Virus record (IMG/VR): IMGVR_UViG_3300042474_000198
Span: 1-21,633 of that record
Length of the DNA: 21,633 bases
DNA from: a virus
Strand: one strand, 5' to 3'
Both the position numbers and the translations under genes were made by a program. The notes below the pieces were generated by a model, which made no database searches, was not told the origin of the DNA, and saw nothing but the letters and a program-made list of their open reading frames with translations. Position 1 is the first letter of the stretch, and each line of letters opens with the position of its first letter. This document shows, in pieces, positions 3,423 through 17,903 of the stretch.

Positions 3423-3503
3423 AGAGTCGCACCTACTATTTAAAAAATTATTAGAAATCCAACTATGATAAGACGTGCGACTCTTTGATTAGTTGGTTTT
3501 TTT
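3423..3503 (+). ncRNA. Structured leader or small RNA: interleaved stems plus T-tract
   Basis: Arms agagtcgcac (3423-3432) and gtgcgactct (3475-3484) pair perfectly over 10 bp. A second pair, ccaacta (3459-3465) with tagttgg (3490-3496), pairs over 7 bp and is followed directly by seven T (3497-3503). The two stems interleave in the order A, B, A', B', so they form either an H-type pseudoknot or two alternative folds, one of them terminator-like. A candidate promoter box sits just upstream, and the homing endonuclease ATG is 4 bases after the T-run. I do not recognise a known RNA family. The pairing is directly visible; function as a small RNA, attenuator or translation control element is inference. 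Confidence 0.55.
3465..3488 (+). CDS. Possible seven-residue leader peptide (MIRRATL)
   Basis: ATG 3465 opens a frame of seven sense codons ending at TGA 3486-3488. Its start context 'ccaactATG' resembles start contexts elsewhere in the window ('caaactATG', 'aaactATG'). The frame covers the whole right arm of the first stem and its ATG overlaps the left arm of the second, so translating ribosomes would disrupt both. A frame this short can occur by chance; no protein evidence is possible from sequence. Confidence 0.3.
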   Translation: MIRRATL

Positions 3504-3507
3504 GTTT

Positions 3508-4146
3508 ATGGTAGGAATTTATAAGATTACAAGTCCAAGTGGTAAAATTTACATAGGTCAAAGTGTAGATATAGAAAGAAGATTTTCTATGTATAAAAGA
3601 TTACATCAATGTAAATTTCAACCAAAATTATATTATTCATTAAGAAAATACGGTACTGAAAATCATATTTTTGAAGTTATTGAAGATTGTGATATTGAAC
3701 TATTAAATGAAAGAGAAAGATATTATCAAGATTTTTATGATGTTTTAAACGGTGGTTTAAATTGTGTACTAACAAAAACAAAAGATAGGAGCGGAAAAGC
3801 AAGTATTGAAAGTAGAAAAAAAATGAGTAATGCACAAATTGAAAACTATAAGAATGGTTACGTACATCCATTATTAGGCAAGAAAGGATTAGAAAATAAA
3901 AATTTTGGTAGAAAAAGAACAAAAGAACAATGTGATAAAATAAAAAATGCACAAATTGAAAACTATAAGAATGGTAGATTAAAATATCCTTCAAGATTAG
4001 TTTTAGATTTAAATAATGGTATTTTTTACGATAGTGCAAGAGATTGTTACGATATTAATAGTTATTTAATTAAAACAAATGAAAGTTCATTTAGAAGAAA
4101 ATTAAGTGGATTTAGAAGAAATGATACAAATTTTATATATGCTTAA
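3508..4146 (+). CDS. GIY-YIG homing endonuclease with NUMOD3 repeats
   Basis: A 212-aa free-standing homing endonuclease. It begins MVGIYKITSPSGKIYIGQS, giving GIY (3-5) and YIG (15-17), followed by catalytic-type R24-R25 and E70 in LNERERYY, the usual order in the GIY-YIG nuclease domain (about 1-90). Residues about 98-155 contain NUMOD3-type DNA-binding repeats (KKMSNAQ, HPLLGKKG, NKNFGRK, KIKNAQ), and the C-terminus (VLDLNNGIFYDSARDCY...) resembles NUMOD1-type modules. I choose ATG 3508; the TTG at 3493 in the same frame lies in the terminator-like stem. The gene and its 104-bp leader interrupt an operon whose other genes abut or overlap, which suggests a mobile insertion. It is probably not essential for the phage. 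Its DNA target is unknown. Confidence 0.9.
   Translation: MVGIYKITSPSGKIYIGQSVDIERRFSMYKRLHQCKFQPKLYYSLRKYGTENHIFEVIEDCDIELLNERERYYQDFYDVLNGGLNCVLTKTKDRSGKASIESRKKMSNAQIENYKNGYVHPLLGKKGLENKNFGRKRTKEQCDKIKNAQIENYKNGRLKYPSRLVLDLNNGIFYDSARDCYDINSYLIKTNESSFRRKLSGFRRNDTNFIYA
3829..3975 (+). repeat. Two identical 30-bp direct repeats within the endonuclease gene
   Basis: Bases 3829-3858 and 3946-3975 are identical over 30 bp, from aatgcacaaattgaaa onward, and encode the same ten residues NAQIENYKNG twice in the NUMOD3 region. Their offset is 117 bp, a multiple of three, so recombination between them would remove or add 39 codons in frame. The exact identity suggests recent duplication or gene conversion of a DNA-binding module. 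Confidence 0.9.
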
Positions 4147-5232: not shown

Positions 5233-5516
5233 TGGAAGATAAAAGAAAGAATAACGGAGGGCATAAGACAAATGGAGGACGTAAACCAATAGCAGATGAG
5301 CAAAAAACAAATGCTATTTTTATTGCTGCAATTAAACAAGTTAAGAATGTTGAAACAGATGATGAGGCAAGAATTGAAATGGCTAAAGATTTGTTAACTT
5401 TTGAACGTGGAAAAATATTTATTTCAGAGCATTTATTTGGTAAGGCAAAAGAAACAATTGAAAGTAATATTTCATTAAACGACTTTAGCATAAAAGACCT
5501 TGTTAACATTAAGTAA
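5232..5516 (+). CDS. Putative terminase small subunit
   Basis: The 94-aa protein directly precedes and overlaps the terminase large subunit gene, the usual place for the small subunit that recognises the packaging site. The N-terminus is glycine-, asparagine- and lysine-rich (KRKNNGGHKTNGGRKP), which suits a flexible DNA-binding arm, followed by a helical body and a C-terminal segment that could contact the large subunit. Similar short 'NGGRKP' N-termini occur in Bacteroidota phage proteins at this position. It is shorter than many small terminases and lacks a clear helix-turn-helix, so the call rests on context as much as sequence. Confidence 0.6.
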   Translation: MEDKRKNNGGHKTNGGRKPIADEQKTNAIFIAAIKQVKNVETDDEARIEMAKDLLTFERGKIFISEHLFGKAKETIESNISLNDFSIKDLVNIK

Positions 5517-6699
5517 AAAATATAATGGGTTATTTTCTGACTCACGTTACTTTGTAATTACTGGAGGTCGTGGTAGTGGAAAATCTTTTTCTGTTACTAC
5601 CTTTTTGCTTACACTAACTTACGAAGTAGGTCATGTAATTTTATTCACTAGATATACATTAACATCTGCTCACGTTTCAATCATTCCTGAATTTATAGAG
5701 AAGATTGATTTGATAGATAGACATTCAGACTTTCACATAACAAAAGATGAAATTATAAATGTTCGGACTGGCTCAAAGATTTTATTTAAAGGTATCAAAA
5801 CAAGTTCAGGACAACAGACAGCGAATTTAAAATCATTAGCTGGGGTCACAACGTGGGTACTTGATGAAGCGGAAGAATTAACAGACGAAGATACATTTGA
5901 TAAGATAGACTATTCTATTCGACATAAAGAAAAACAGAACAGAGTTATTTTAGTTTTAAACCCAGCAACTAAAGAACATTTTATTTACCAAAAGTTTTTT
6001 GAGAATAAAGGTGTTGATGGCGGTGTAACGATTGTAAACGACGATATTACATACATTCACACAACTTACTTAGATAATGAAGAAAACCTCTCTAAATCAT
6101 TCCTAGAGCAAATTAACGACATTAAAGAACGTAGACCCGAAAAGTATAAACATACTATTTTAGGCGGTTGGTTAGATAAGGCGGAAGGAGTTATTTATAA
6201 CAACTGGAGAATAGGAGAGTTTAATAATGATAACGGTTCTGTGTTCGGTCAAGATTACGGATTTAGTAACGACCCTACAACATTGGTTGAAACGTCTATT
6301 GATAAGGGTAGAAAGTTAATTTATCTAAAGTTACATATTTATCAAACTCAATTAGTAACGACAGAACTTGCAAGGCTAAATAATCATTTTACTAAAGGCG
6401 GTTTAATAGTTGGAGATAATGCAGAACCTAGATTAATAAGTGAATTAAAACATCAGGGAAACAATGTAGTACCCTGCGTTAAACATAAGATTACAGAGGG
6501 TATTGAGATGTTGAGAGATTACGAAATGATAATAGATTGTGATTCGATTGATTTAATTAAGGAGTTGAATAATTACAGTTGGTTAGAACGTAAGTCAGAA
6601 ACTCCGATTGATAAATTTAACCATGCACTTGATGCTGTTAGGTATGCAGTATCTTATCAATTATCAAATCCTAACAAAGGTAACTATTCAATCTACTAA
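5500..6699 (+). CDS. terL: Terminase large subunit (packaging ATPase and nuclease)
   Basis: The 399-aa protein powers DNA packaging into the prohead and cuts the concatemer. The ATPase half has Walker A GGRGSGKS (residues 22-29) and Walker B VLDEAEE (D122, E123). The nuclease half has an RNase H-like acidic triad: D252 in FGQDYGF, D306 in VGDNAEPR, and D378 in NHALDAVRYA. Length and layout fit the PBSX-type terminase family. No ATG or GTG precedes Walker A: after the in-frame TAA at 5491 the only usable start is TTG 5500, which overlaps the small subunit gene by 17 bases, so translation is probably coupled to it. The next gene starts 31 bases downstream. Confidence 0.93.
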   Translation: MLTLSKKYNGLFSDSRYFVITGGRGSGKSFSVTTFLLTLTYEVGHVILFTRYTLTSAHVSIIPEFIEKIDLIDRHSDFHITKDEIINVRTGSKILFKGIKTSSGQQTANLKSLAGVTTWVLDEAEELTDEDTFDKIDYSIRHKEKQNRVILVLNPATKEHFIYQKFFENKGVDGGVTIVNDDITYIHTTYLDNEENLSKSFLEQINDIKERRPEKYKHTILGGWLDKAEGVIYNNWRIGEFNNDNGSVFGQDYGFSNDPTTLVETSIDKGRKLIYLKLHIYQTQLVTTELARLNNHFTKGGLIVGDNAEPRLISELKHQGNNVVPCVKHKITEGIEMLRDYEMIIDCDSIDLIKELNNYSWLERKSETPIDKFNHALDAVRYAVSYQLSNPNKGNYSIY

Positions 6700-6730: not shown

Positions 6731-7438
6731 ATGAAATTAAATTTAACAATTCCAACTTCATTAAGTGAGATACCATTACTTCACTATCAAAAGTATATGG
6801 ATATTTGTAAGAATAATACCGACCCCGAATTTTTAGGGCAAAAGATGATTCAGATATTTTGTGGGATTGAATTGAAAGAAGTAGTTAAGATTAAGTTCAA
6901 TGACATGGTTGAATTGGTAAATCATTTTAATAAACTATTTAGCGAGATTCCAAAGTTACAAACGACATTTAATATTAACGAGTTAGAGTTAGGTTTAATT
7001 CCAAACTTCGACAAAATAAGCTGGGAGGAATATATCGAAGCAGAAACACACATTGTAAATTTTGATTCGTTTCATAAAGCATTGGCTGTTTTGTATAGAC
7101 CTGTAATCGAAAAGAATAAGAAAGGTCAGTATTTAATAGCACCATTTAACAACGTCGATGAGTTTGGAGAAATGATGAAGTACACACCTTTATCAATTGC
7201 ACTTTCAGCACACGTTTTTTTTTTGAATTTAGAAAGGGAGTTACTGAAGGCTACCATAAACTTTTTAGAGAAGAACCTAAAGACATTGACGATGAGCAAC
7301 CAACAGATTTTAGCGAAGAAGCTCAATTTTCAAAACAGTGGGGGTGGTATCAGTCAATATATCAAGTCGCTCAAGGAGATCTTAGAAAGTTCGATGAAGT
7401 TCTCAAACTTGAATTATTTACCGTCCTTAACTTTCTGA
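6731..7438 (+). CDS. Tail assembly chaperone-like protein, zero-frame product
   Basis: The unshifted product is 235 aa, starting at ATG 6731 after the ACGTTTAAAAACT leader. It begins MKLNLTIPTSLSEIPLLHYQ and continues with mixed helices and strands containing FDKISWEEYIEAETH and KALAVLYRPVI. This N-terminal part resembles proteins I associate with Bacteroidota phage tail modules. Codon 162 begins a run of ten T (7215-7224). After it the zero frame stays open to TGA 7436-7438 but has high G+C at third codon positions, unlike its neighbours, while the -1 frame looks like the main coding frame. By analogy with lambda G and G-T the gene may yield two products for tail assembly. A homopolymer sequencing error is the main alternative. 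Confidence 0.65.
   Translation: MKLNLTIPTSLSEIPLLHYQKYMDICKNNTDPEFLGQKMIQIFCGIELKEVVKIKFNDMVELVNHFNKLFSEIPKLQTTFNINELELGLIPNFDKISWEEYIEAETHIVNFDSFHKALAVLYRPVIEKNKKGQYLIAPFNNVDEFGEMMKYTPLSIALSAHVFFLNLERELLKATINFLEKNLKTLTMSNQQILAKKLNFQNSGGGISQYIKSLKEILESSMKFSNLNYLPSLTF
7215..7224 (+). other. Ten-T slippery run, candidate programmed frameshift or transcript slippage site
   Basis: Zero-frame codons are GTT TTT TTT TTG from 7214. A -1 slip on the T-run moves decoding to TTT 7222-7224 and then GAA 7225, entering the frame that ends at 7500. UUUUUUU heptamers are classic -1 slippery sequences, and runs of nine or more T also allow RNA polymerase slippage. I see no obvious downstream stimulatory hairpin. 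If the true genome has 11 T, the gene would simply be continuous. Confidence 0.65.
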
Positions 7439-7500
7439 CATTCGAGAAGCAAAAGACACAAATAGAAATTAATCAAATTAAAAAAAATCAATTAAAATGA
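7225..7500 (+). CDS. -1 frame extension of the tail chaperone-like gene (shifted product 256 aa)
   Basis: Read from GAA 7225 in the -1 frame, 91 codons lead to TGA 7498-7500 and give an acidic, then aromatic segment: EFRKGVTEGYHKLFREEPKD, later FSKQWGWYQSIYQVAQGD and FTVLNFLTFEKQK. No ATG or other good start opens this frame on its own, so it must be reached by slippage at 7215-7224 or by a corrected homopolymer. The following gene starts at ATG 7497, overlapping this frame's stop as ATGA, the same coupling used across the module, which argues that this frame is translated to its end. The WGWYQS-type segment resembles tail-module proteins of Bacteroidota phages as I remember them. Full product: 6731 to 7500 with one base read twice. 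Confidence 0.7.
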   Translation, partial: EFRKGVTEGYHKLFREEPKDIDDEQPTDFSEEAQFSKQWGWYQSIYQVAQGDLRKFDEVLKLELFTVLNFLTFEKQKTQIEINQIKKNQLK

Positions 7501-7946
7501 GTTACTTCGACATATCTACAAAATTATATGACACACTAAACACCGACCCACTTGTTAACCAAGTTACTAAAGGGGATTTGTCAGCAGTATTATTGCAGAA
7601 ACAAAATATGTTTCCTTTATGCCATATAATGTTTAATAATACAACATTTTCAAACCAAGTTGTTAACTACAATATTTCTATAATTTGTATGGATGCAGTT
7701 GATTTTAGCAAAGATGAAACGGTTACTTTGTACGTTGGTAATAATAATGAAGACGATGTAATGAACTCTACATTAGCGATACTTAACAGATTGTATGAAC
7801 AAATGTATAGAGGAAGTTTAAAGATAAATTACGATATACTTTCAGATGCAACGTGTGAACCATTCTTTGATAAGTTTACAGATTCAGTAGCGGGTTGGAC
7901 TATGACATTTGATATATCCACAGAAAACACAATGGTAATTTATTGA
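7497..7946 (+). CDS. Putative tail completion or tail terminator protein
   Basis: The 149-aa protein begins MSYFDISTKLYDTLNTDPLV, has a beta-rich middle (VVNYNISIICMD) and ends with DKFTDSVAGWTMTFDISTEN. The pattern of an N-terminal helix, a strand pair giving a hydrophobic sheet, and a 'aGW...f.i' end strand resembles tail terminator or completion proteins of siphoviruses and small neck proteins of Bacteroidota phages. It is coupled by ATGA to the frameshifted gene upstream and lies one base before an HK97 gp10-like gene, the usual partner of tail completion proteins. The fold assignment is inference; virion location is supported by context. Confidence 0.5.
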   Translation: MSYFDISTKLYDTLNTDPLVNQVTKGDLSAVLLQKQNMFPLCHIMFNNTTFSNQVVNYNISIICMDAVDFSKDETVTLYVGNNNEDDVMNSTLAILNRLYEQMYRGSLKINYDILSDATCEPFFDKFTDSVAGWTMTFDISTENTMVIY

Positions 7947-11896: not shown

Positions 11897-12042
11897 TAAA
11901 GAATATTTTAGAAATGTTAGCCTTATCTAACTTCTACGGAGAAAGTGAAGCAATTGATATTGTAAAAGGGAAAAATGAAATACCTAAAACGATAAAAGAA
12001 GCATACAAGCAAGGAGTTAGACAATTAAAAGCGGTGAAATAA
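11893..12042 (+). CDS. Small protein, 49 aa, upstream of the tape measure
   Basis: A 49-codon frame begins at ATG 11893 (ATGA overlap) and ends at TAA 12040-12042, whose last base is the first base of the tape measure ATG. It fills that gap exactly. It reads MIKNILEMLALSNFYGESEA and ends in a basic helix (EAYKQGVRQLKAVK). I recognise no family. It is too small for a standard gpG-type chaperone but its position, directly before the tape measure, is where such proteins usually lie. A role in tail assembly is therefore possible but unsupported beyond location. Confidence 0.65.
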   Translation: MIKNILEMLALSNFYGESEAIDIVKGKNEIPKTIKEAYKQGVRQLKAVK

Positions 12043-13877
12043 TGGCAGAAACTAAAGTAGTAAATTTAGAAGTAAAGACGAACGTAGAGCCGTTAAAGAA
12101 ACAACTTAAAGAAGCACAAAAGGAAGTTGAAGCATTAGCGGCAAAGTTTGGAGCAACTTCGGACGAAGCGGTTAAAGCAGCTAAAAAAGCCGCAGAATTA
12201 AAAGATGCGATAGGAGATGCAAAGTCTTTAACAGACTCGTTTAATCCCGATGCTAAGTTCAATGCTTTGTCTAGTTCTTTGGGTGGTGTAGCGAGTGGAT
12301 TCGCTGCTTATCAGGGTGCAATGGGTCTTGTTGGTGTTGAATCTAAAGAAATTGAAAAGCAACTTTTAAAGGTTCAGTCTGCTATGGCATTGGCTCAAGG
12401 ACTTCAAGGATTAGGAGAGGCTAGAGATTCATTTAAACAATTAAAAGCGGTTGCAATAGATACTTTTAAGGGTATTAAAACAGCAATAGGAGCAACGGGA
12501 ATAGGTTTGTTAGTAATTGCTTTAGGGACTTTATACGCTTATTGGGACGACATTAAAGAATTGGTAGGCGGTGTAAGTGATGAGCAACGCAAACTTAATG
12601 AGGAAGTAAATAGAAATGTTGTTTTAGAAAATGAAAAGTTAGATAAAATAGGTGAACAAGATAACGTTTTAAAACTTCAAGGTAAAAGCGAAAAGCAAAT
12701 ACTACAATATAAAATTGCTCAAATTGAAGCGGTGCAATTAGCATCTAAAATTCAATTACAAAATGATTTTGTAACTAAACAAAATCAAATAGCAGCAGCC
12801 AAAAGAAATAAAGAATATTTAAAAGGCTTTTTAGATTTTATTACATATCCTCAAAAGAAACTAACTGAGTTCTTTTTTGTGTTTGTCAATGAAGCGATAG
12901 GAATATTAAATAAGATACCAGGAGTAGACATTGCTAAATTTAATGTAAATACAATACTTAAAGATTTTGACGGAATTAACAACAAAATAGCAAACTTAAT
13001 TTTCGACCCGTCCGAAACTTCTAAAAAAGCGGACGAAGTTATTAAAGAGCATAAAAAGGGTTTAGTAAAATTAGAAAATGATAAGGCTGGTTTATTACTT
13101 CAAATAAAAGATATAGATAAAAAAGAAGTAGCCGATAATAAAACAAAACTTGACAAAATAAACGCAGACAATGAAGAGGCTTTTAAAAAGAAGCAAGCGG
13201 ACAGAATATCACAACAAGCAGAAGATGCAAAGGAGTTAGCAGATGCTAAAAAATTCGATGAAGATAAGCACAAATCAGAAGTTGAAGCACTACAAAAAAC
13301 AGCAGCAGCAAATAAGGCAGCGGGAGAAAAAATAATTGAGAATGATAAAAAAGTAGCAGCCGAAAAGAAAATAATACAAAATCAACAACTACAAGCGGTT
13401 CAAGATACATTTACAATTATTGCTAATTTATCCGAATTATTTGCGGGTAAATCTAGAAAACAACAAGAAACTGCGTTTAAAATTCAAAAGGCTGCGAACA
13501 TAGCAAACGCAACAATAGATACTTATAAAGCGGTCATGTCAACATACGCATCTACTCCTGGTGGACCAATTATAAAAGGTATAGCGGGCGGGGTTGTTTT
13601 GACTGCTGGTTTATTAAATGTTAAAAAAATTGCATCTACACAATTTTCAAGCGGTGGCGGTTCTAGTGGTGGTGGAGGCGGTGGTTCAACTACTTCGGGC
13701 GGTGGCGGTGGAAATAACGCACAAATTCAAGCTCCTTCGTTTAATATAGTAGGTAATAACGGATTGAACCAATTGAGCCAATTAAAACAGGCACCTATAC
13801 AAGCATATGTAGTAAGTGGTGCGATGTCAACAGCACAAAGTTTAGATAGAAATAGAGTTAGAAACGCAACATTATAA
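12042..13877 (+). CDS. Tail tape measure protein
   Basis: The 611-aa protein sets tail length and occupies the tail tube lumen. Residues 1-70 form a charged coiled coil (PLKKQLKEAQKEVEALAAKF). A membrane-like hydrophobic segment lies at about 148-167 (AIGATGIGLLVIALGTLYAY), and a long alanine/lysine-rich helix follows at about 340-460. A conserved-looking end reads ANIANATIDTYKAVMSTYAS, then a second hydrophobic stretch (510-524), and a glycine-rich low-complexity tract at about 537-560 (encoded at 13650-13716). This layout matches tape measures of Bacteroidota phages. By the 0.15 nm per residue rule the tail would be about 92 nm. No peptidoglycan hydrolase motif is visible. The preceding gene overlaps by one base. 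Confidence 0.85.
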   Translation: MAETKVVNLEVKTNVEPLKKQLKEAQKEVEALAAKFGATSDEAVKAAKKAAELKDAIGDAKSLTDSFNPDAKFNALSSSLGGVASGFAAYQGAMGLVGVESKEIEKQLLKVQSAMALAQGLQGLGEARDSFKQLKAVAIDTFKGIKTAIGATGIGLLVIALGTLYAYWDDIKELVGGVSDEQRKLNEEVNRNVVLENEKLDKIGEQDNVLKLQGKSEKQILQYKIAQIEAVQLASKIQLQNDFVTKQNQIAAAKRNKEYLKGFLDFITYPQKKLTEFFFVFVNEAIGILNKIPGVDIAKFNVNTILKDFDGINNKIANLIFDPSETSKKADEVIKEHKKGLVKLENDKAGLLLQIKDIDKKEVADNKTKLDKINADNEEAFKKKQADRISQQAEDAKELADAKKFDEDKHKSEVEALQKTAAANKAAGEKIIENDKKVAAEKKIIQNQQLQAVQDTFTIIANLSELFAGKSRKQQETAFKIQKAANIANATIDTYKAVMSTYASTPGGPIIKGIAGGVVLTAGLLNVKKIASTQFSSGGGSSGGGGGGSTTSGGGGGNNAQIQAPSFNIVGNNGLNQLSQLKQAPIQAYVVSGAMSTAQSLDRNRVRNATL

Positions 13878-16852: not shown

Positions 16853-17398
16853 ATGCCGATAACAATTGCAAACGGAAGAAAAGAACAAGATAAAGACAGT
16901 GTAGGTGGATTCAAAGCACTTTACTTTATCAATAATCAAATTGTAAAAAGTGATATTACATATGATGCTACAAACACAGATGTAATTGACACAATTCTAA
17001 ATGTAGATACTTTATACAAATTTGAATTAAAGGGAGAAAATAGTTTTAATCAAACTATAATGGCGGACCCAATCGCTGGAACAACTTATTTTGAACAAAA
17101 TTTAAGTATCAAATTAAAAAAACAAGATGCTGCAACGTCAAAAAATGTAAAATTACTTGCTTATTCTATGCCACATTGCGTATTACAAGACTACAACGGT
17201 AAGTTTTATATTGCTGGTCTATTGAATGGCTTAGACCTAGTGGGGGGTGAAATTTCAGGAGGTTCAAAAATGGGTGACTTCAATGGGTACTCATTAACTT
17301 TCAAAGGTGAAGAAGTTTGTTACGCTAATTTATTAGATGCTACAACAGAAGCAGCGATGCTTACTTTGTTTACTTCAGCTACTTTAGTAACTTCTTAA
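16853..17398 (+). CDS. Putative major tail tube protein
   Basis: The 181-aa protein begins with NGRKEQDKDSVGGFKALYFI and has NVDTLYKFELKGENSFNQTI, TTYFEQNLSIKLKKQD, VKLLAYSMPHCVLQDYNGKF and MGDFNGYSLTFKGEEV. This order of beta strands with 'GGfKa.yf', 'yFeQ.l...lKk' and 'MGDl.GY.ltf' matches tail tube proteins I associate with Bacteroidota siphoviruses. The gene is flanked on both sides by intrinsic terminators, an arrangement suited to setting a separate expression level for an abundant tail subunit. It lies apart from the other tail genes, between capsid and portal. The call is from pattern memory and context, not a search. Confidence 0.6.
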   Translation: MPITIANGRKEQDKDSVGGFKALYFINNQIVKSDITYDATNTDVIDTILNVDTLYKFELKGENSFNQTIMADPIAGTTYFEQNLSIKLKKQDAATSKNVKLLAYSMPHCVLQDYNGKFYIAGLLNGLDLVGGEISGGSKMGDFNGYSLTFKGEEVCYANLLDATTEAAMLTLFTSATLVTS

Positions 17399-17417
17399 TA
17401 AATACTACTACTACTTT

Positions 17418-17450
17418 AAAGGCTATCTTAATCGGTAGCCTTTTTTTTTT
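17418..17450 (+). terminator. Intrinsic terminator after the tail tube gene
   Basis: aaaggctatc (17418-17427) pairs with ggtagccttt (17434-17443) over 10 bp with a 6-base loop and one T-G wobble, followed by a run of T to 17450. It starts 20 bases after the preceding stop. This is the strongest terminator in the window by stem and T-run. Confidence 0.9.
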
Positions 17451-17471
17451 GAATACAATTTATAAAATTAT

Positions 17472-17483
17472 CGTTTAATAACT
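17472..17483 (+). promoter_or_regulatory. Translation leader motif CGTTTAATAACT before ATG
   Basis: CGTTTAATAACT lies directly before ATG 17484 and matches the leader at 6719-6730 with one difference. Upstream, acaattta (17455-17462) resembles 'acaaaatta' before ATG 6731. It supports ATG 17484 as the start and follows directly after the terminator region. Confidence 0.5.
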
Positions 17484-17903
17484 ATGATAGTATTAACAAC
17501 AGATGCGACGGCACAAAGTTTTAATTTCGTTCCTAGAACTGAGGATGTAGATTTTGATGTATTTCCGATTCAAGACGAGCAAACAAATGTTATATTTAAT
17601 TTTAGAGTAAATACTTCTTACACTGACTACAATAAACTAGACTTAACAGATGAACAAACAAACACAAGCGTTACTTATAATGTATCTAGTTTTACTACTT
17701 CTGAATACTATCATACAATTACACTTGCTTTTAGTGGATTAATAGAAGGGCATACATACATAATGAGAATTTACAGAGATTCAAAAACAAACACACGTTT
17801 TTTAGGTAAAGTTTTAGCAACTAATCAATCATTACCATATACGGTTAATGAAGGTATTTATAACAAGAGAGAAACAACAAACGATTTTATAATATATGAA
17901 TAA
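17484..17903 (+). CDS. Small beta-rich structural protein
   Basis: The 139-aa protein is mostly beta strands: QSFNFVPRTEDVDFDVF, DEQTNTSVTYNVSSF, YYHTITLAFSGLIEGHTYIM and RIYRDSKTNTRFLGKV, ending ETTNDFIIYE. The pattern of DEqtN, EGhtY and NdFIiYE resembles short Ig-like virion proteins common in Bacteroidota phages next to the portal gene. It overlaps the portal gene by eight bases, so co-translation is likely. Neck, decoration or connector roles are all possible; none is shown by a motif. It follows the terminator after the tail tube gene. Confidence 0.5.
   Translation: MIVLTTDATAQSFNFVPRTEDVDFDVFPIQDEQTNVIFNFRVNTSYTDYNKLDLTDEQTNTSVTYNVSSFTTSEYYHTITLAFSGLIEGHTYIMRIYRDSKTNTRFLGKVLATNQSLPYTVNEGIYNKRETTNDFIIYE

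Follow-up and report, generated by a model that had tools for sequence, protein, structure and literature searches.

Positions 6731 to 7500 of the 21,633-nucleotide viral sequence analysed here (IMG/VR record IMGVR_UViG_3300042474_000198, whole stretch referred to as the window) probably form one gene with a programmed slip site and two predicted products, a putative chaperone pair for which slippage of RNA polymerase would be the likeliest route of expression. The features of the locus and the neighbouring genes used for orientation are given below.

5500–6699, plus strand: terminase large subunit, upstream neighbour
6731–7438, plus strand: zero-frame gene (235 aa), made up of the N-domain and a zero-frame tail past the T-run
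6731–7222, plus strand: N-domain common to both predicted products (164 aa), conserved in all relatives
7215–7224, plus strand: T10 slip site with the in-frame heptamer T_TTT_TTT inside; 241 of 242 relatives have T9 or T10 here, with five codon phases represented
7222–7500, plus strand: -1 frame domain bearing the WGWY motif, which would be accessible only through slippage, start codons being absent close to the run; conserved from Flavobacteriia to Bacteroidales
7225–7438, plus strand: zero-frame tail over the -1 domain, a probable dual-coding stretch (stop-free P = 0.00025; reduced synonymous change)
7497–7946, plus strand: next gene, phrog_30964, function not assigned, in ATGA overlap with the end of the -1 frame
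12042–13877, plus strand: tape measure protein gene, same block

The gene that begins with ATG at 6731 reads the T10 run as GTT TTT TTT TTG and continues to a TGA at 7436–7438, and the -1 frame, through which a fusion product of 256 aa is predicted, ends in a TGA at 7498–7500 that overlaps the ATG of the next gene (7497–7499) as ATGA. The +1 frame meets a TGA immediately 3' of the run. Within the first 30 codons past the run, the nearest cluster (18 members) had no ATG, GTG or TTG in the -1 frame. The preliminary description of this DNA had placed the run and both open frames at these positions, with the ATGA overlap and a second frame lacking its own start, and had remarked that the gene adjoins terminase and lies away from the tape measure gene; all of this was borne out, four genes separating the end of the -1 frame from position 12042. 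Within the genes of the window, only 6 of 4178 possible starts gave 71 open codons in the corresponding relative frame, and T8 stretches were depleted in the window (11 observed, 22.7 expected from shuffles). A second T10, at 17441–17450, is intergenic (17398 to 17484) and non-coding. The gene order between 5500 and 19602 is unusual, with terminase followed by a tail block containing the tape measure gene, a protease, a probable capsid and tail tube, and a portal near the end, and an ORF at 3493–4146, starting GIYKITSPSGKIYIGQS, resembles a GIY-YIG homing endonuclease.

Relatives were collected by an N-domain search (80 viral loci), a -1 domain search (80 further viral loci), a genome scan with a -1 domain profile (seven cellular loci, in Flavobacteriia and Bacteroidales), and a Bacteroidales-type profile (another 80 viral loci, more distantly related), with additional loci from whole-genome searches; a genome scan with an N-domain profile gave no match. 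Counts were based on the 242 loci with both ends present, which fall into 34 clusters when their -1 domains are grouped at 70% identity, and refer to loci and not to independent genomes, some being overlapping copies of one contig. The loci came from viral contigs, from Flavobacteriia and Bacteroidales genomes, and from the cultured Nonlabens phage P12024L, and the split arrangement was also found in a 4.3-Mb single-contig chromosome (L182 in G139). T9 or T10 was present at the frame junction in 241 of the 242 loci, in phages and prophages of Bacteroidota (142 of 143 distinct sequences in one set, 55 of 55 in another), the sole exception being L070, which has T8 and both frames broken. An alignment of homologues, the check proposed in the preliminary description, thus revealed no uninterrupted relatives and no other T count in 241 of 242 loci, and lends support to its central proposal that two frames are reached in a programmed way at the T-run, the predicted products being 235 and 256 aa long and the WGWY segment lying in the longer one.

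Phage P12024L carries a direct homologue, with T9 at the same site after terminase and the WGWY domain in the -1 frame. Its halves are annotated as hypothetical genes 40 and 41 (L082:12001–12695, JQ823123.1) and resemble one slipped gene, and the same gene layout is seen in phage P12024S, annotated as hypothetical genes 38 and 39 (L083:3001–3695, JQ823122.1). Among cultured phages, N-domain queries reached only P12024L/S, and tblastn with the window's -1 domain and with the fused Dysgonomonas protein as queries returned no match. That fused protein is encoded in the prophage of Dysgonomonas sp. 520, where one locus (L170:7431–8183) has T10 and the fusion in a single frame, and its sibling L168 has T9 and is split; in the Dysgonomonas prophage region L168:5512–9352, an integrase gene, and not terminase, immediately precedes the slipped gene and its block. 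Two further variants were noted. In L046, from about 4489, the overlap is reduced, the -1 part is 64 and not 90 codons long and the WGWY segment is absent, with both frames still open. In Flavobacterium phage 6H (L192:10352–10927, minus strand), a structural relative ends early with protein-like open frames behind it, without a T9 run and without a clean -1 continuation, which reflects either a different shift or a sequence error.

Across the family, the length of the run is conserved and its codon phase is not, a T lost on one side being matched on the other. With phase expressed as the T's supplied by the 5' codon / 3' codon, the 241 loci comprised T9 2/1 (164 loci), T10 2/2 (51 loci), T9 1/2 (23 loci), T10 0/1 (2 loci), and T10 1/0 with three full TTT codons (1 locus). 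Where the 5' codon supplies a single T (AGT, TCT, AAT, GCT and others), later T's restore a run of at least nine, as seen in seven clusters (L032, L071, L168, L169, L182, L194, L197). A scan for A/T runs in ORFs of 150 aa or more (187 kb in total, from the window and 34 cluster representatives) gave the slip site as the only run of at least nine, once per locus, with the exception of the T8 in L070; FF dipeptides elsewhere in these sequences are encoded with runs of 6–8 T, or with TTC. Nested RNA structure 3' of the run did not exceed that of shuffles (mean z -0.05, 0 of 29 below -2). The heptamer T_TTT_TTT sits in the correct zero-frame phase in every locus.

Bacterial RNA polymerase slips efficiently in vivo at nine A's or T's (PMC5009743). 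Slippage of the polymerase is considered the more likely mechanism here, at roughly two-thirds confidence, because at least nine T's are kept in any phase, no 3' stem-loop is predicted, and no such coding runs occur elsewhere; the ribosome may slip too, or instead. Unslipped reading of T10 would give the 235-aa protein, and slippage on the run would give the 256-aa protein, with the same 164-aa N-domain joined to the WGWY domain, which is conserved and encoded in the -1 frame. Addition of one U by the polymerase (U11 in the window, U10 in T9 relatives) would bring ordinary ribosomes into the -1 frame, and transcripts lacking one U would lead to a stop nearly immediately. The pair of Dysgonomonas loci, T10 encoding the fusion in one frame and T9 the split form, was counted in favour of slippage.

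The in-frame T_TTT_TTT would also permit -1 slippage by the ribosome, additionally or alternatively, and phage tail chaperones known so far mostly use ribosomal frameshifting (PMC5009743). Classical programmed frameshifting on U_UUU_UUU, with the long U-run only boosting efficiency, would agree with the zero-frame heptamer at every locus and with the fact that a longer run could serve the ribosome as well, and is a serious though rather unlikely alternative. Seven T's would be enough for such a shift, yet no run is shorter than nine except the T8 of L070, where neither frame is intact; a T missing in one codon is made up in another, no lineage uses another slippery heptamer instead, and nested 3' structures in 29 sequences are no stronger than in shuffles. 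Of the -1 frameshift on the T-run put forward in the preliminary description, the access to two frames is supported, and the ribosome as default agent is less well supported, given a run of at least nine in any codon phase, no predicted nested stem-loop and no such runs elsewhere in coding sequence.

The products were compared with known proteins by model and profile. An AlphaFold model of the zero-frame product was mostly helical (pLDDT 81, pTM 0.71; tail 55–73), and a model of the fused product, with an alignment rebuilt from trimmed pieces, had a pTM of 0.41 and low confidence in the C-terminal domain. The zero-frame product had no match in Pfam and no significant match in the PDB (Foldseek), no PHROG match backed a tail-chaperone identity (PHROG 32199, containing P12024L gene 40, is without known function), and the structural relatives of the model were uncharacterised phage proteins; those annotated as tail assembly chaperone were matched only weakly (E 0.07 and 0.3). 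Functionally, the pair is most likely a tail assembly chaperone pair like lambda G/GT, with a common form and a rarer form that would carry a partner-binding domain, as in lambda gpG and gpGT. The description of the gene as tail chaperone-like in the earlier account is a reasonable but putative label, which found no backing in Pfam, PHROG or PDB matches. Slippage could also be real in a gene of another kind, for example a terminase-associated or head-tail joining factor, since the gene directly follows terminase in both the window and P12024L and a chaperone family or fold match is absent from Pfam and the PDB. This is regarded as unlikely, if still of some weight: both the two-product architecture and the largely helical model are what tail chaperones typically show, the gene stands at the head of a block running to the tape measure gene, and in Dysgonomonas a similar block follows the gene with no terminase directly upstream.

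The sequence downstream of the run was analysed in both frames. In the -1 domain, W-G-W-Y is invariant from Flavobacteriia to Bacteroidales, and judged by this conservation the domain is clearly a protein. Except in L070, the zero frame of every locus continues open for 24–93 codons beyond the run. Stop avoidance was evaluated in 27 lineages as the opening length given the -1 protein and local codon usage, with a result of P = 0.00025 in the window itself and of less than 0.01 for 21 of the 27 lineages. L103 and L165 were borderline, and in L110, L156, L164 and P12024L an opening of the observed length was unremarkable; the overhang is just 24 codons in P12024L and the L252 cluster. Synonymous change, uncorrected for amino-acid composition or for signals that start the next gene, was compared at sites with an unchanged -1 residue. 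It was 0.35–0.70 times as high in the overlap as in the N-domain in 11 of 11 clusters with enough data, and lower in the overlap than in the -1 domain past the zero-frame stop in several of the larger clusters (0.160 vs 0.254, 25 sequences; 0.162 vs 0.264, 13 sequences; 0.127 vs 0.226, 10 sequences; 0.167 vs 0.298, 8 sequences); in L013, L103 and the cluster with the short overhang, L252, the two values were roughly the same. Stop avoidance together with the roughly halved synonymous change suggests dual coding of the overlap in most lineages, a point absent from the claims of the preliminary description, and the zero-frame tail, held open in most lineages, probably matters as protein too. Dual coding would not be universal, because the tail has 24 codons in P12024L and L252 and the opening is ordinary in L110, L156 and L164.

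The same region bears on two explanations that dispense with slippage during expression, each of which is considered very improbable. One is that the -1 domain is a separate gene, reached by an internal start or by reinitiation, and that the zero-frame overlap is due to chance. In its favour, P12024L gene 41 was annotated with an internal ATG, and in the L167 cluster start codons lie near the run in 35 of 38 loci. However, 31 of 34 clusters have no ATG, GTG or TTG among the 30 codons with which the -1 frame begins, conservation of that frame begins at the run, and the invariant T-run would be left without explanation. Phase variation at the DNA level, with run length varying in the population and toggling between the short and the fused protein, would account for L170 and its sibling L168, which differ by one T and provide fused and split forms in one genome, but it predicts mixed in-frame and out-of-frame assemblies, and only L170 and L070 deviate from the split form. 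An error of sequencing or assembly in the homopolymer, with a true gene in a single frame, which the preliminary description had named as the main rival (11 T), has a negligible probability and is rejected for the family. Homopolymers are indeed error-prone, and L070 has T8 and L170 T10 amid a T9 context, yet the identical break recurs in 241 of 242 loci, which derive from numerous samples and include a cultured phage and the 4.3-Mb single-contig chromosome.

The open-access literature searched gave no prior account in which this gene is frameshifted or a tail chaperone relies on transcriptional slippage. Tentatively, and with somewhat less than even confidence, the loci may represent a large unrecognised family of chaperone-like genes in Bacteroidota phages, in which polymerase slippage on T9–T10 would set the product ratio and overlapping frames would provide two functional C-termini. 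If this is true, PHROGs 32199 and 38404, now unrelated unknowns, would become one two-product gene in many uncultured Bacteroidota phages, with a candidate dual-coding stretch of about 50–90 codons in most lineages, and the locus would show clearly how selection acts on the length of a homopolymer whatever its codon phase.

Three known systems were used for comparison. In P12024L and P12024S, the genes assigned to PHROGs 32199 and 38404 (40/41 and 38/39) are annotated as unrelated hypothetical genes, and the P12024L locus differs from the window in a zero-frame overhang of only 24 codons. Frameshifted tail assembly chaperones of phages, among them lambda gpG/gpGT (Xu, Hendrix and Duda 2004, cited in PMC3711429; PMC5009743), are similar in that one gene in the late structural region gives a product pair, predicted here, with a common N-domain and a longer form extended by a -1 frame domain, and a gene architecture for two products by -1 entry was found, at the level of sequence, in 241 of 242 loci. 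In contrast to the mixed heptamer and the zero frame ending near the site in those genes, the slip site here is a T9–T10 run and the zero frame continues for 24–93 codons; no stimulator is predicted among nested structures (n=29), there is no detectable homology, and the gene follows terminase, with four genes between 7500 and 12042 preceding the tape measure gene, rather than lying immediately upstream of it. The gene was not filed as a member of the lambda G/GT class, because it is not adjacent to the tape measure gene and the fold matches are weak (E 0.07, 0.3). Of the pattern X_XXY_YYZ expected for -1 ribosomal shifts, T_TTT_TTT is present in the zero frame at every locus. The dnaX gene of Thermus thermophilus, in which slippage occurs at nine T's (PMC5009743), is unrelated as a gene, and slippage is here proposed from the sequence, but both have nine T's within a coding region where two frames meet, and two products in the proposed mechanism; an A/T homopolymer of about nine at the junction was found in 241 of 242 loci, with its length conserved independently of codon phase over five phases. 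The locus would offer a parallel to dnaX, for which related systems arrive at one outcome through slippage of either the polymerase or the ribosome.
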